Part shown: in pieces, positions 29,805 to 39,658 of the stretch
How positions within the stretch are numbered: position 1 is the stretch's first letter
Layout: each line of letters opens with the position of its first letter
Assembly (NCBI GenBank): GCA_003347645.1
Contig: QDFX01000007.1
Span: 62,001-126,000, forward strand
From: Rhizobiaceae bacterium CPCC 101076
GTDB taxonomy: Bacteria > Pseudomonadota > Alphaproteobacteria > Rhizobiales > Methylopilaceae
Direction: 5' to 3'
Length of the DNA stretch: 64,000 nt
Position numbers and translations under genes: made by a program
Notes under the pieces: model-generated
Told to the model about the DNA's origin: nothing
Seen by the model: only the letters and a program-made list of their open reading frames with translations
The model's database searches: none

Positions 29805-29913
29805 CCTCACCCTGAGCCGGGCACGCAGTGCCCGTGTCCACGGATCGCGGCAAGCTCGGAGCATGCGACCATCCTTCGACATGGGCTGCTGTGCAGCCCG
29901 GCTCAGGATGAGG
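29805..29913. repeat. Palindromic repeat element between recR and ybaB
   Basis: An 18-base inverted repeat, CCTCACCCTGAGCCGGGC (29805-29822) and GCCCGGCTCAGGATGAGG (29896-29913), matches at 17 of 18 positions. Each arm also folds on itself (GGGCAC-GCA-GTGCCC and GGGCTGC-TGT-GCAGCCC). This looks like the REP-type palindromes scattered in Rhizobiales chromosomes. It interrupts the dnaX-ybaB-recR row and may affect recR expression. Confidence 0.7.
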
Positions 29914-32021: not shown

Positions 32022-32067
32022 CGCGATGATATGGCAGGGTGAAAGGCGCGGACGCAAGTGCGCGAGT

Positions 32068-32162
32068 AGGAGGTTGGACGACGACCCGAGACGGGCTCGT
32101 TAGGGCTGCTTCCTTCCGGACCTGACCCGGTTGGCGAGTGGCTCGTCCACCGCCAACCTCCC
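32068..32162 (-). ncRNA. ffs: Signal recognition particle RNA (4.5S, small bacterial type)
   Basis: The minus strand contains the highly conserved apical domain GGGTCAGGTCCGGAAGGAAG, the Ffh-binding loop of SRP RNA, flanked by a long stem whose ends GGAGGTTGG and CCAACCTCC (32069-32077 with 32153-32161) pair perfectly. At about 95 bases it is the small bacterial form that binds Ffh for cotranslational targeting to the membrane. It lies just upstream of dnaX on the same strand, a common alphaproteobacterial arrangement. Confidence 0.96.
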
Positions 32163-34258: not shown

Positions 34259-34960
34259 ATGACCGCTTCCGCCAACACCATCGCCGAAGTCGCCTCGCTG
34301 ATCGGCGATCCGGCCCGCGCCAACATTCTCTCCGCGCTCATGGGCGGGAAGGCGCTGACGGCGGGCGAACTCGCCTGGAATGCGGGCGTCAGCGCCCAGA
34401 CGACGAGCGGGCATCTCGCCAAGCTCAGCGAGGCAGGTCTTCTGGCCGTGGAGAAGCAGGGTCGCCACCGCTATTACCGCCTTGCCTCTTCGGAAATCGC
34501 GCAGGTGATGGAAGCGCTGATGAACGTCGCCGCGACGGGACCGAAACGCCACCGCCCCACCGGCCCGAAGGACGAGGCGATGAGGCTGGCCCGCACCTGC
34601 TACGACCATATGGCCGGCCGCCTCGGCATCGCGATCGCGGACGCACTCTGCGCGCACGGACGGCTGATCCTGTCCGACGGATCGGGGGCGGTCACCGAGG
34701 AAGGCCAGAAGTTCTTCTGCGAATTCGGCGTGGACCTCAAAACCGGCGGAAAGCGCGCGCTCTGCCGAACCTGTCTCGACTGGAGCGAACGCCGCCCGCA
34801 TCTGGCCGGACGGCTGGGCGCGGCTTTGTTCACGCGCTCGCTCGATCTGGGATGGGTCGCGCGCATTCCGGACAGCCGGTCGCTGAGGATCACGCCACCG
34901 GGACGGCTGGGCTTCGCGAAGACATTTGGGCTGCCGTCGGACTGGCTCGAACCGGTCTAG
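34259..34960 (+). CDS. ArsR-family winged-helix regulator
   Basis: A 233-residue protein. The N-terminal 90 residues form an ArsR-type winged helix (IGDPARANILSALMGGKALT, then ELAWNAGVSAQTTSGHLAKL and GRHRYYRLAS). The long C-terminal part has KDEAMRLARTCYDHMAGRLG and a second similar CRTCLDWSERRPHLAGRLG, a known layout in larger ArsR-like repressors; the cysteines (CRTC) could bind a metal, though not proven. It is divergent from the EamA transporter and probably represses it. The gene ends exactly at a palindromic repeat. Confidence 0.88.
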   Translation: MTASANTIAEVASLIGDPARANILSALMGGKALTAGELAWNAGVSAQTTSGHLAKLSEAGLLAVEKQGRHRYYRLASSEIAQVMEALMNVAATGPKRHRPTGPKDEAMRLARTCYDHMAGRLGIAIADALCAHGRLILSDGSGAVTEEGQKFFCEFGVDLKTGGKRALCRTCLDWSERRPHLAGRLGAALFTRSLDLGWVARIPDSRSLRITPPGRLGFAKTFGLPSDWLEPV

Positions 34961-35039
34961 GCGTCGTCCTCCGGCTCGACCGGAGGACCCATATGGAGGC
35001 GGTGGAATGGATCCTCCGGTCAAGCCGGAGGATGACGCC
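34960..35039. repeat. Paired palindromic repeat between ArsR and pheA
   Basis: A 32-base inverted repeat (34960-34991 and 35008-35039) matches at 29 of 32 positions, with 16 bases between. Each arm is itself nearly palindromic: TCCTCCGG, short loop, CCGGAGGA. Repeats of this TCCTCCGG-type are dispersed in many Rhizobiales genomes. It lies between the convergent ends of the ArsR and pheA genes and may act as a two-way terminator. Confidence 0.8.
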
Positions 35040-35050
35040 TCGAGGACCCA

Positions 35051-36666: not shown

Positions 36667-36844
36667 GGAAAAACTCTAGAAACCGCGCTAACCGCCTCCA
36701 TTCGGCGGCAAAAAGTAGCAGCGCACCCGCTCTATACGAGTTGTCATCTTTACACGAAAGCGATTAGGTTCCGCCCGCTTCGTGGACCGGCTTTTCGGCC
36801 CGCTTTTGCACCTTAGTTTTCACACCCCGCCTCCGGAGAACGGG

Positions 36845-37495
36845 ATGGATTCCTTCGAGGTCAACAAGATGCTCGGCGCCGTGCTGGGCACTCTTACCTT
36901 CGTCGTCGGCCTGTCGATCGCCTCCGAGATCCTGTTTGAGCAGCACGCTCCGGAAAAGCTGGGTTATGACCTTCCGGCTCCGGTCGAGAACGCGGGCGCG
37001 CCAGCCGCCGCGGCTCCGGCCGTTGAGCCGATCGCCGTCCGTCTCGCCAAGGCCGATCCGGCCAAGGGTGAAGCGGCGGTCAAGCAGTGCCAGTCCTGCC
37101 ATTCGTTCGAGAAGGGCGGCCCGAACAAGGTCGGCCCGAACCTTTACGGCGTCGTCGGCAACCACCACGGCCACCTCGACGGCTTCAACTACTCGGCTGG
37201 CATGAAGGCCAAGAGCGGAGAGCAGTGGTCGTTCGAAGCGATGGACCACTTCCTCGAAAACCCGAAGGCCGCCGTTCCGGGCACCGCGATGTCGTTCGCC
37301 GGCATCAAGCGTCCCGACCAGCGCGCCGACGTGATCGCCTATCTGAACAAGAACTCGGACAGCCCGCTGCCGCTCCCGGCTCCGGACGCCGCCCCGGCTC
37401 CGGCCGAAGGCGCCGCTCCCGCCGCGGGCGCTCCCGCTCCGGATGCGGGCCAAGGCGCCGCACCGGCCCCGGCCGCGCCCGCCGCTCCGCACTGA
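36845..37495 (+). CDS. cycM: Membrane-anchored cytochrome c, CycM type
   Basis: A 216-residue c-type cytochrome. The N-terminal uncleaved anchor (MDSFEVNKMLGAVLGTLTFV) is followed by an Ala/Pro linker, then the haem domain with CQSCH, GPNLYGVVGN and the axial Met region GTAMSFAGIK. The C-terminus has a Pro/Ala-rich extension of about 40 residues. CycM in Bradyrhizobium carries electrons from the bc1 complex to aa3 oxidase. The ATG at 36845 fits the family (MDSFEFNK); the longer frame adds unsupported residues. Periplasmic side, inner membrane. Confidence 0.92.
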   Translation: MDSFEVNKMLGAVLGTLTFVVGLSIASEILFEQHAPEKLGYDLPAPVENAGAPAAAAPAVEPIAVRLAKADPAKGEAAVKQCQSCHSFEKGGPNKVGPNLYGVVGNHHGHLDGFNYSAGMKAKSGEQWSFEAMDHFLENPKAAVPGTAMSFAGIKRPDQRADVIAYLNKNSDSPLPLPAPDAAPAPAEGAAPAAGAPAPDAGQGAAPAPAAPAAPH

Positions 37496-37786
37496 TCCGG
37501 ATCGTCGTCTGAGAGTGTAAGAGGTGGTGCCGGCTGTATCGCCGTCGCCCTATGCGCTCACGGTCTGGGCGACTATTTCGAAGTGCATCCTCGGGTGAGC
37601 GCACCGCCGACTAGTCGGCTGGCCCATCGCTGCTCGGCACCACCGGTCCATTAACCCCTCAAGATCGAGCGGGTTCCAGCCTTGCGCGCATTCCGCGTAA
37701 CGGCACGGGTGGCAGATCACCGGCTTTGCGACATAATCTTGCCTGAGGCTACGCTCACGCCAATCCGATCAGGGAGATGCCGCGTT
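37496..37786. other. Intergenic region between cycM and the yej operon
   Basis: It holds the strongly folded interval at 37523-37644 and must contain the yejA promoter. An AGGGAG ribosome binding site (about 37771) precedes the TTG start. I see no gene; the reverse frame across it is a shadow. Confidence 0.5.
37523..37644. ncRNA. Candidate structured RNA or cis-regulatory element
   Basis: Four complementary pairs nest in 122 bases: GGTGGTGCCG (37523-37532) with CGGCACCACC (37635-37644); GTCGCCC (37544-37550) with GGGCGAC (37567-37573); TGCGCTCAC (37553-37561) with GTGAGCGCA (37595-37603); and GCCGACTAGTCGGC (37606-37619). The second and third interleave, so they are either mutually exclusive or form an H-type pseudoknot. 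The strand is not decided. 6S RNA or a 5' leader switch for yej are the main options. No poly-T end. Confidence 0.45.
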
Positions 37787-39658
37787 TTGACGATCGTTCA
37801 GCGCCTTGCCGTTCTGTGCCTTGCCTTTTCGCTCGGCGGCACCGCCGTAGAGGCCCAGACCGAACCGCCGCCGCCCGCCGGCGAATGGAAGCACGCTCTG
37901 TCGCTGTTCGGCTCGGTCAAATATCCGGCCGACTTCAAGCATTTCGATTATGTGAACCCGAACGCCCCCAAGGGCGGTCTCGTCCGGCTGTCCGCGCCGG
38001 GCGGCTATGACAGCTTCAACATCGCGATTCCGCGCGGCGTCGTCGCGGCGGGGCTGACACAGATCTACGAGACCCTGATGGTCGAGTCCCAGGACGAGGT
38101 CTCGACCGAATACGGCCTCCTCGCCGAGGCGGTGAAATATACCGCCGACTATTCCTCCGTCACCTATCGCCTGCGCCCCCAGGCGCGCTGGCAGGACGGC
38201 AAGCCGCTGACCGTCGAGGACGTCGTCTGGTCGTTCGACGTGCTGAAGAACAATTCGCCGTTCTACGCGCAGTACTATCGCAACGTGTCCAAGGTCGAGA
38301 CCTCCGGCAACGAGGTGACCTTCACCTTCACCGAGAAGGGCAATCGCGAGCTGCCGCAGATCATCGGCCAGCTCATCGTCATGCCGAAACACTGGTGGAC
38401 GGGCACGGGACCGGACCGCAAGCCGCGCGACATCCTGCAGACCACGCTTGAGCCGCCGCTCGGCTCGGGGCCGTATCGCATCAAGCCCGGCTTCCAGGCC
38501 GGCCGGACCATCTCCTACGAGCGCGTGCCCGACTATTGGGGCAAGGACCTGCCGGTGATGGCAGGCACAAACAACTTCGACGAGATCCGCTACGACTATT
38601 ATCGTGACAGCGATGTCGCGCTCGAAGCCTTCAAGGCCGGCCAGTACGATTTCCGCGTCGAGAGCACCGCGAAGAACTGGGCGACCGCCTACGACTTCCC
38701 TGCCCGCCAGCAGGGCAAGGTCGTGCTCGACACCTATCCGATCCGCAATATGGGCCTGATGCAGGGCTTCGTGTTCAACACCCGGCGCGAGAAGTTCCAG
38801 GACCCAAGGCTCCGGCGCGCCTTCGACCTCGTGATGAACTTCGAGGACATGAACAAGACCCTGTTCTTCAACCAATACAAGCGCATCACGAGCTATTTCC
38901 AGAACACCGAACTTGCATCGAGCGGCCTGCCGCAGGGCAAGGAACTGGAAATCCTTAACACCGTAAAGGATCAGGTTCCGCCGGAGGTCTTCACCACCGC
39001 CTATTTCCATCCCTCGAACGCCGACACCAATGCGCAGCGCGAGAATCTGCGCGAGGCGGTCAGGCTGATGGGCGAAGCTGGCTGGACCGTCAAAAACACC
39101 GGCGGCAAGCGGGTCATGACCAATGCCAAGGGAGAGCCGCTGACGGTCGAGGTTCTAATCGACCAGCCGATCTTCGAGCGCGTCGTTCTGTTCTACAAAC
39201 AGGCGCTCGACCGGCTCGGCATCGACGTCGCTGTCCGCACCGTCGACGACGCTCAGTATGAGAACCGCGTTAACGCCTTCGACTTCGACATGATCATCGC
39301 CAGCTGGGGCGAGTCGCTGTCGCCCGGCAACGAGCAGAGGGAGTTCTGGGGCTCCGCCGCCGCCGACCGCGAGGGCTCGCGGAACTATGCCGGCATCAAG
39401 AACCCGGCGGTCGACGAACTCATCGAGCGGCTGATCTACTCGACCGACCGCGACGATCTCGTCGCCGCGACCAGGGCGCTCGACCGCGTCCTCCTCTGGA
39501 ACAATTACGTCGTGCCGAACTGGACGCTCGACAAAACGCGCTACGCCTACTGGAACCGCTTCTCGCACCCGGAAAAGCTGCCGCAATACGGCCTCGGCTT
39601 CCCGGATGTCTGGTGGTACGACGAGGCCAAGGCCGCCTCGGTGGGACGCGCGCAGTGA
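37787..39658 (+). CDS. yejA: Periplasmic peptide-binding protein, Yej ABC importer (Sec-exported)
   Basis: A 623-residue extracytoplasmic solute-binding protein of the peptide/nickel family (SBP_bac_5). I prefer the TTG at 37787 with AGGGAG upstream, which opens a signal peptide (IVQRLAVLCLAFSLGGTAVE); the frame extends to 37682. Residues KYPADFKHFDYVNPNAPKGG are the YejA signature. In E. coli YejABEF imports short peptides and microcin C. The stop overlaps the start of a second such gene by 4 bases (GTGA). Confidence 0.9.
   Translation: MTIVQRLAVLCLAFSLGGTAVEAQTEPPPPAGEWKHALSLFGSVKYPADFKHFDYVNPNAPKGGLVRLSAPGGYDSFNIAIPRGVVAAGLTQIYETLMVESQDEVSTEYGLLAEAVKYTADYSSVTYRLRPQARWQDGKPLTVEDVVWSFDVLKNNSPFYAQYYRNVSKVETSGNEVTFTFTEKGNRELPQIIGQLIVMPKHWWTGTGPDRKPRDILQTTLEPPLGSGPYRIKPGFQAGRTISYERVPDYWGKDLPVMAGTNNFDEIRYDYYRDSDVALEAFKAGQYDFRVESTAKNWATAYDFPARQQGKVVLDTYPIRNMGLMQGFVFNTRREKFQDPRLRRAFDLVMNFEDMNKTLFFNQYKRITSYFQNTELASSGLPQGKELEILNTVKDQVPPEVFTTAYFHPSNADTNAQRENLREAVRLMGEAGWTVKNTGGKRVMTNAKGEPLTVEVLIDQPIFERVVLFYKQALDRLGIDVAVRTVDDAQYENRVNAFDFDMIIASWGESLSPGNEQREFWGSAAADREGSRNYAGIKNPAVDELIERLIYSTDRDDLVAATRALDRVLLWNNYVVPNWTLDKTRYAYWNRFSHPEKLPQYGLGFPDVWWYDEAKAASVGRAQ

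Follow-up and report, generated by a model that had tools for sequence, protein, structure and literature searches.

A putative small structured RNA family of narrow range, represented by five copies in one genus of the Hyphomicrobiales

The interval between a cycM-like and a yejA-like gene at positions 37523-37644 (plus strand, 122 nt) of the stretch of DNA analysed here (64 kb in full; hereafter, the window) holds one copy of a putative structured RNA family. Five copies were identified in all (the window copy, L126, L145, L146 and L147), and these come from three genomes of one genus. They probably represent a family of small structured RNAs of narrow range, the function of which we infer from sequence. 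The interval would encode an RNA approximately 100-120 nt long, with the plus strand as its most likely sense strand, and the family appears confined, as far as searched, to a single genus of the Hyphomicrobiales. In its predicted anatomy, the closing stem (P1) is variable and is followed by a GCC/GGC pair that is invariant (P1b), by hairpin P2, which covaries and has a loop of 20 nt, by a joining segment that is conserved (UAUUU...GUGCAUCC) and lastly by a 3' segment, GAAGCGCG-CACC. The last of these has two possible partners: the GUGCAUCC arm, with which it would form hairpin P3, or the loop of P2, with which it would form stem B (Table 1).

Table 1. Features of the window copy and its surroundings (positions are those of the window)
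Feature	Position	Strand	Remarks
Window copy, whole element	37523-37644	+	141.5 bits with model R2 and 110.6 bits with R3, both trained on the window copy
Closing stem P1, 5' arm	37523-37532	+	Perfect 10 bp
Closing stem P1, 3' arm	37635-37644	+	Perfect 10 bp with 37523-37532
P1b, GCC	37541-37543	+	Pairs with 37621-37623; invariant in 5/5 copies, hence no covariation information
P1b, GGC (3' arm)	37621-37623	+	Invariant in 5/5 copies
Stem P2 (7-bp stem of the earlier note), 5' arm	37544-37550	+	Five core pairs in 5/5 copies
Stem P2, 3' arm	37567-37573	+	Five core pairs in 5/5 copies
Stem B (interleaved stem of the earlier note), 5' arm	37553-37561	+	Inside the P2 loop; 9 bp in the window copy
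Stem B, 3' arm	37595-37603	+	Same segment as required by hairpin P3
Conserved joining segment, TATTTCGAAGTGCATCC	37574-37590	+	GTGCATCC invariant in 5/5 copies
Alternative hairpin P3, GTGC with GCAC or GCGC	37583-37604	+	Five-copy consensus fold
Hairpin P4, GCCGA-CTAG-TCGGC	37606-37619	+	2/4 pairs changed on both sides in alignment A8
cycM-like membrane c-type cytochrome gene (assumed name), upstream neighbour	36842-37495	+
Predicted yejA promoter	37709-37737	+	-10 box recurs in congeners
yejA-like peptide-binding protein gene (assumed name), start inferred	37787-39658	+	Synteny in congeners

The two flanking genes are presumably cycM-like and yejA-like, these names following the earlier note on this DNA. 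The element starts 27 bases past the cycM stop (37495) and ends 142 bases ahead of the TTG at 37787, which is the presumed start codon of the yejA frame; both distances given in the earlier note agree with the gene coordinates. The three stems for which it gave coordinates (P1, P2 and stem B) are all perfect, and the latter two do interleave, their arms being separated by 2, 5 and 21 bases. Its view that this is more pairing than a plain intergenic region should hold is borne out, as the stems are real and four further copies preserve pairing despite sequence changes. The folding energy of the interval is moderately unusual (z of -2.5 on the plus strand and -3.5 on the minus strand), with 34 (plus) and 27 (minus) of the 1065 windows of 122 nt in the 64 kb folding as well after G+C correction. 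A perfect closing stem of at least 10 bp within 130 nt, enclosing a stem of at least 9 bp and an interleaved stem of at least 7 bp (a combination defined post hoc, with the structure already seen), occurs once in the 64 kb and in none of 60 shuffles of the window or 5000 shuffles of the 122-mer. Compensated pairing in the four further copies is better confirmation than this count.

Further copies were identified with iterated covariance models, built from the window copy only (R1), two copies (R2) and four copies (R3). The genus is represented by four genomes: that of the window (G000) and its congeners G001, G002 and G003. R1 gave matches at E <= 0.1 in four of 61 genomes, among them L126 (G000:C34:214531-214637; 28.2 bits), a weak match in the same genome as the window copy. 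The best non-self match of R1, L123, lies in another genome and was also matched by R2 (E 0.04); it is a false positive within a coding gene, and the R1 step is weak by itself because this coding match scored higher than L126. Two others, L124 and L125, were matched by R1 only and were dropped before members were counted. The local alignment of the window copy with L126 scores 63, and the best of 300 single-base shuffles scored 50. R2 gave matches at E <= 0.2 in three of 40 genomes: the two training copies, L123, L145 (G003:C16:36071-36178; 50.5 bits, E 6.8e-8) and L146 (G000:C36:130875-130987; 38.2 bits, E 5.2e-5). Matches of R3 at E <= 0.01 were found in three of the 397 genomes of the order, all of the one genus: G000 (three places), G003 and G002, the last of these holding L147 (G002:C1:339788-339893; 60.8 bits, E 8.4e-9). 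No homologue was identified outside the genus among the 397 genomes, an absence that is provisional because this search used strict filters and scored no more than nine candidates per listed genome. The family sample thus comprises five sequences, three of them orthologues, and the four further copies were found by models containing P2, which biases the sample towards copies that keep this stem.

Other searches added no members. R3 applied to 20-kb stretches, one apiece from 12 further genomes of the genus and family (hrpB being present in only two of these stretches, those of G001 and G005) gave two weak matches only (E 0.23 and 0.3), which were not accepted. Across 48 sources (the window and 47 cycM loci), it matched the window and, weakly, L058, a Mesorhizobium contig (142-267; 22.4 bits, E 0.058) in which the match is probably due to chance. 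A nucleotide search with the intergenic region (61 relatives, 18 genomes from the family and 397 from the order, own genome included) gave only short non-self matches. Six of these were inspected by alignment and for open frames; the fit extends over 22-52 nt, and at least L002 and L040 lie within recognisable genes. The idea of a pseudogene, suggested by a multihaem cytochrome-like gene at L084, was rejected as its protein had one match among the 61 genomes, in a genome of another family. In viral contigs, the closing-stem pattern matched ten stretches, nine of them in open frames of at least 277 aa, with inter-arm likeness in all ten limited to words of 11-12 nt, and the two-stem pattern and two core patterns matched nothing. 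The 17-mer TATTTCGARGTGCATCC was found in 13 viral stretches, which align with the window copy or L126 at scores of 44 or less (63 for the window-L126 pair); the best of these, L135, is a phage-like coding frame. No match for the window copy or L145 was found in plasmids and phages, and L126 gave 14 short matches in plasmids, 13 of them at an E of 2 or more.

Covariation in relatives had been proposed in the earlier note as a check, and the relatives do covary. In an ungapped, equal-length alignment of the five copies (A9), all 25 cells of the P2 core are paired and three of its five pairs are changed on both sides, the core being GTCGC/GCGAC, CCAGC/GCTGG or, in three copies, CCGGC/GCCGG. This covariation score was reached in one of 500 shuffles, and only 4-48% of cells pair when the partner is slid along. 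A full MAFFT alignment is likewise free of gaps across P2. The two inner pairs of the seven in the window copy are partly lost in the other copies. For the whole structure, 92.1% of 165 cells are paired in alignment A8 and 15 of 37 pairs are changed on both sides (0/500 shuffles), figures that are biased upward since this alignment was fitted to the model and the copies were found by models holding the stems. In the same model-fitted alignment, eight of the 14 pairs of P1 are changed on both sides. The window copy has 10 bp of P1 and L145 has 10 bp of other sequence (each 0/500 shuffles). The P1 of L126 measures 7 bp, as reached in 19% of shuffles (P 0.19), the arms in L147 contain one mismatch with a best unbroken helix within shuffle range (P 0.80), and the best closing helix of L146 sits further out; the closing stem covaries in part. 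Hairpin P3 provides no covariation information as its arms are nearly invariant, and P4 is absent from the five-copy consensus fold despite its two double-changed pairs in A8. Among the invariant segments are GTGCATCC and, in the P2 loop, CGGT.

The plus strand is most likely the sense strand, since U-G pairs outnumber A-C cells on it (10 versus three in the model-fitted alignment). Folding z values on the plus strand are -2.4 (window copy), -3.2 (L126), -2.7 (L145), +0.8 (L146) and -2.3 (L147), and those on the minus strand are -4.2, -2.8, -1.4, +0.5 and -1.2, respectively. They are thus relatively better on the minus strand for the window copy and L146 and on the plus strand for L126, L145 and L147, with L146 folding no better than its own shuffles. 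No sigma-70-like promoter was found just upstream on the plus strand in scans of the five copies. Terminator-like sites on this strand are few and weak, one lying 39 nt after L146 and one just before it. A further such site occurs inside L145 (1533-1546), L146 (1535-1548) and L147 (1530-1543), where the 3' arm of P2 is followed by TATTT or TACTT; if working, it would shorten the RNA. Approximately 30 nt downstream of the RNA at L147 there is a strong hairpin (1636-1661; GCTTCGGGC/GCCCGAAGC), found on the minus strand, which is possibly the 3' end of the transcript; another short palindrome is seen by eye near the corresponding place at L145. L145 and L147 are identical in the sequence GGCCACCAATCCGGCT, which covers the start of P1 and the bases immediately before it (before 1501) and could belong to the RNA or to a promoter.

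The earlier note read the two inner stems as either a switch or an H-type pseudoknot. Stem B, between the 20-nt P2 loop and the segment before CACC, is long in three of the five copies, with 9 bp in the window copy and 8 bp in L145 and L147 (CGCGCTTC/GAAGCGCG), lengths rarely reached in shuffles (P 0.002, 0.003 and 0.003, respectively). It has only 5 bp in L126 and L146 (P 0.40 and 0.27), and in the consensus fold GTGCATCC pairs instead with GGAAGCGC, enclosing a loop that varies in length, to give P3, which competes with stem B for the same 3' arm. The overlap may reflect a switch, a pseudoknot or a plain hairpin. H-type pseudoknot riboswitches such as SAM-II combine interleaved stems and a long joining loop that is conserved, and the element would resemble them in both respects. 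It differs from them in having no Rfam match, in lying outside the yejA 5' leader, in having no common downstream gene and in that its second stem competes with a hairpin. A genus-specific regulatory RNA switching between two folds, multiplied and captured behind housekeeping genes, is a possible but rather doubtful model. In such a switch, the 3' arm GAAGCGCG would pair either with the invariant GUGCAUCC (P3) or with the P2 loop (pseudoknot B), the change of fold would alter the exposure of GUGCAUCC, and capture behind housekeeping genes in the window species would have one RNA co-expressed with different operons.

A single locus next to hrpB and a small gene, common to three of the genus's four genomes, holds L145, L146 and L147. 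Both hrpB and the small gene lie on the strand opposite to these copies. The small gene encodes 85 aa at L145 and L146; at L147 it is a frame of 127 aa, the far start of which would overlap the element. The far side of L145 and L146 is occupied by an opposite-strand gene with a double cold-shock domain and that of L147 by a co-directional chemoreceptor gene. L126 starts 37 nt past the stop of an eamA-type gene. The names eamA-type, DUF1508-like, cold-shock and chemoreceptor are presumptive for these neighbours. In the stretch of G001 syntenic with the hrpB locus (L148; hrpB, small gene and cold-shock gene), nothing scored above 12 bits with filters off, and no match to the element was found elsewhere in that genome. 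Unproven open frames overlap several of the copies, and 'intergenic' is used here for positions between recognisable genes. The hrpB-linked copy is probably ancestral in the genus because it is common to three of the four genomes. The copies after cycM and after the eamA-type gene, found in G000 only, are probably duplicates, and the hrpB-linked copy would thus have been duplicated behind these two genes in the window species. At the shared locus, a MAFFT alignment made without a model, from the small gene to the far neighbour, gives L145 and L147 identities (40-column windows) of 78-90% across the greater part of the element and 60% where it ends; outside the element they are 20-53%.

A dispersed repeat acting as DNA and not as RNA, for example a palindromic, non-autonomous insertion element with inverted repeats kept for transposition or protein binding, is an unlikely account of these copies. 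It would fit the presence of three copies in G000 with inverted repeats at or near their ends, and the lack of the element from the cycM-yejA gap of the three congeners. The copies are, however, old and diverged (whole-alignment identities of 54-74%, except for 88% between L145 and L147), and three of them are orthologous rather than newly inserted. The end arms differ in sequence between copies, so that near-identical terminal inverted repeats were not found, yet they are complementary in the window copy, L145 and L126. Furthermore, no target duplication was found for the window copy, the longest word shared by its 20-nt flanks being 4 nt, and the ten U-G cells on the plus strand would be mismatches on the minus strand. 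Elsewhere in the window, a long hairpin at 34956-35043 (37-nt arms, 89% complementary, 14 nt between) is the strongest G+C-corrected fold on both strands and looks like a dispersed intergenic palindromic repeat. An inverted repeat of 18 nt (94%), with arms 73 nt apart, lies at 29805-29913.

With regard to the neighbouring genes, the earlier note had suggested a leader switch for yejA or a 3' UTR element of cycM. A candidate yejA promoter, GTGGCA-17-CATAAT, was identified by sequence match downstream of the element, with its -10 box at 37732-37737. This box recurs in all three congeners (CATAAT in two, CATACT in one), beginning 48, 60 and 68 nt past the cycM stop versus 236 nt in the window; in the congeners, visual inspection of the cycM-yejA gap shows a hairpin followed by the yejA promoter, with no element and no room for one. 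If this promoter is used, a yejA leader is excluded because the element lies upstream of it. A leader riboswitch was also rejected as the downstream gene is not the same among the copies: yejA for the window copy, a DUF1508-like gene for L126, the opposite-strand cold-shock gene for two copies and the chemoreceptor gene for L147. A cis-acting 3' UTR element of cycM, serving mRNA stability or the end of transcription, is quite improbable. The window copy does follow the cycM stop closely on the same strand, the eamA copy likewise follows a stop, the congeners have (by eye) a hairpin after cycM, and no T-tailed terminator was found at the window locus. Against this, only one of the five copies lies after cycM, so the suggestion is not a general one, and the hrpB-linked copies have no co-directional gene ending just upstream, hrpB and the small gene being on the opposite strand. 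With such varied neighbours, and with the candidate yejA promoter located beyond the element, a cis role is unlikely.

A short peptide gene or protein-coding relic on the plus strand is very improbable. Of 18 codons, 11 are alike between the window copy and L126, four of the five copies read APA(L/F)PR-x-G-(L/Q)-(G/S)-x-Y over the 12 codons that begin with GCC, and EARTG is back in frame in three (L126, L145 and L146), which are spanned by open frames of 90-148 aa on this strand. The five copies, however, read the invariant GTGCATCC in three frames between them, which points to a constraint on nucleotides and not on protein. The joining segments measure 32, 33, 36, 33 and 38 nt, so that at GCACC the frame of the window copy and L147 is not that of the other three. 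The compensatory changes in P2 would be unexpected for a coding relic, and tblastn of the 22-aa window peptide gave no match in plasmids. A minus-strand ORF of 56 aa (37550-37720) had no Pfam match; its weak tblastn matches in 50 of 61 genomes (E <= 1, own included) were judged compositional from twelve that were examined. Chance pairing without function in a G+C-rich intergenic region, with which the approximately 3% of windows matching by folding energy alone and the short matches of the early single-sequence searches would agree, is scarcely credible given that there are four homologues in which changes are compensated and that conservation forms an island, an argument that holds unless L126, L145, L146 and L147 are unrelated to the window copy.

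Given that the small RNA is real, a role in trans or in protein binding is on balance the favoured one. It would be transcribed as a compact RNA that binds a protein, or that acts on mRNAs via its invariant GUGCAUCC or P2-loop segments. Thirty-nine RNA family models have been described for trans-encoded sRNAs of the Rhizobiales, starting from Sinorhizobium meliloti transcripts, with 32 of the 39 limited to the Rhizobiaceae; some of those families are multicopy with broken synteny and several have no terminator-like features (PMC3927594). The present family resembles these, as they are described there, in its narrow range and, like some, in being multicopy; terminator-like features, absent from several of them, are few and weak here. 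The published models are transcript-based, whereas the present family is predicted from sequence. It would represent a small RNA that is young, restricted to one lineage and complex in fold, and a case for how such RNAs arise and spread.

A comparison with Rfam 15 identified no family at the gathering score for the window copy, and the same was true of L126, L145, L146 and L147. Sub-threshold matches at E up to 10 comprise two around the window element (37400-37850), all far below cut-off, none for L145, five for L146 and one each for L126 and L147. The element can thus keep the description 'undescribed' that the earlier note gave it, and its reading as a free RNA gains support from covarying relatives with compensatory changes. 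None of the literature searched names this RNA or these loci, and the novelty of the family rests on this and on Rfam; what is added is a structured RNA family without an Rfam entry, with compensatory changes, a probable ancestral locus and probable species-specific duplicates. The suggestion that such a free RNA might be 6S RNA did not hold, as no match to RF00013 at E up to 10 was found in 37400-37850. The window element was also rejected as the 6S gene of this genome, the single 6S match of which scores 79.8 bits, above the cut-off, and is at G000:C1:16029-16186. 6S RNA is a long rod with a central bubble. The element is similar in being closed and largely paired, as the earlier note suggested, and differs in its conserved hairpin and invariant joining segment. 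At gathering scores, Rfam 15 gives two matches in the 64-kb window: a tRNA and, on the minus strand at 32065-32162, a bacterial small SRP RNA (RF00169, 63.4 bits).
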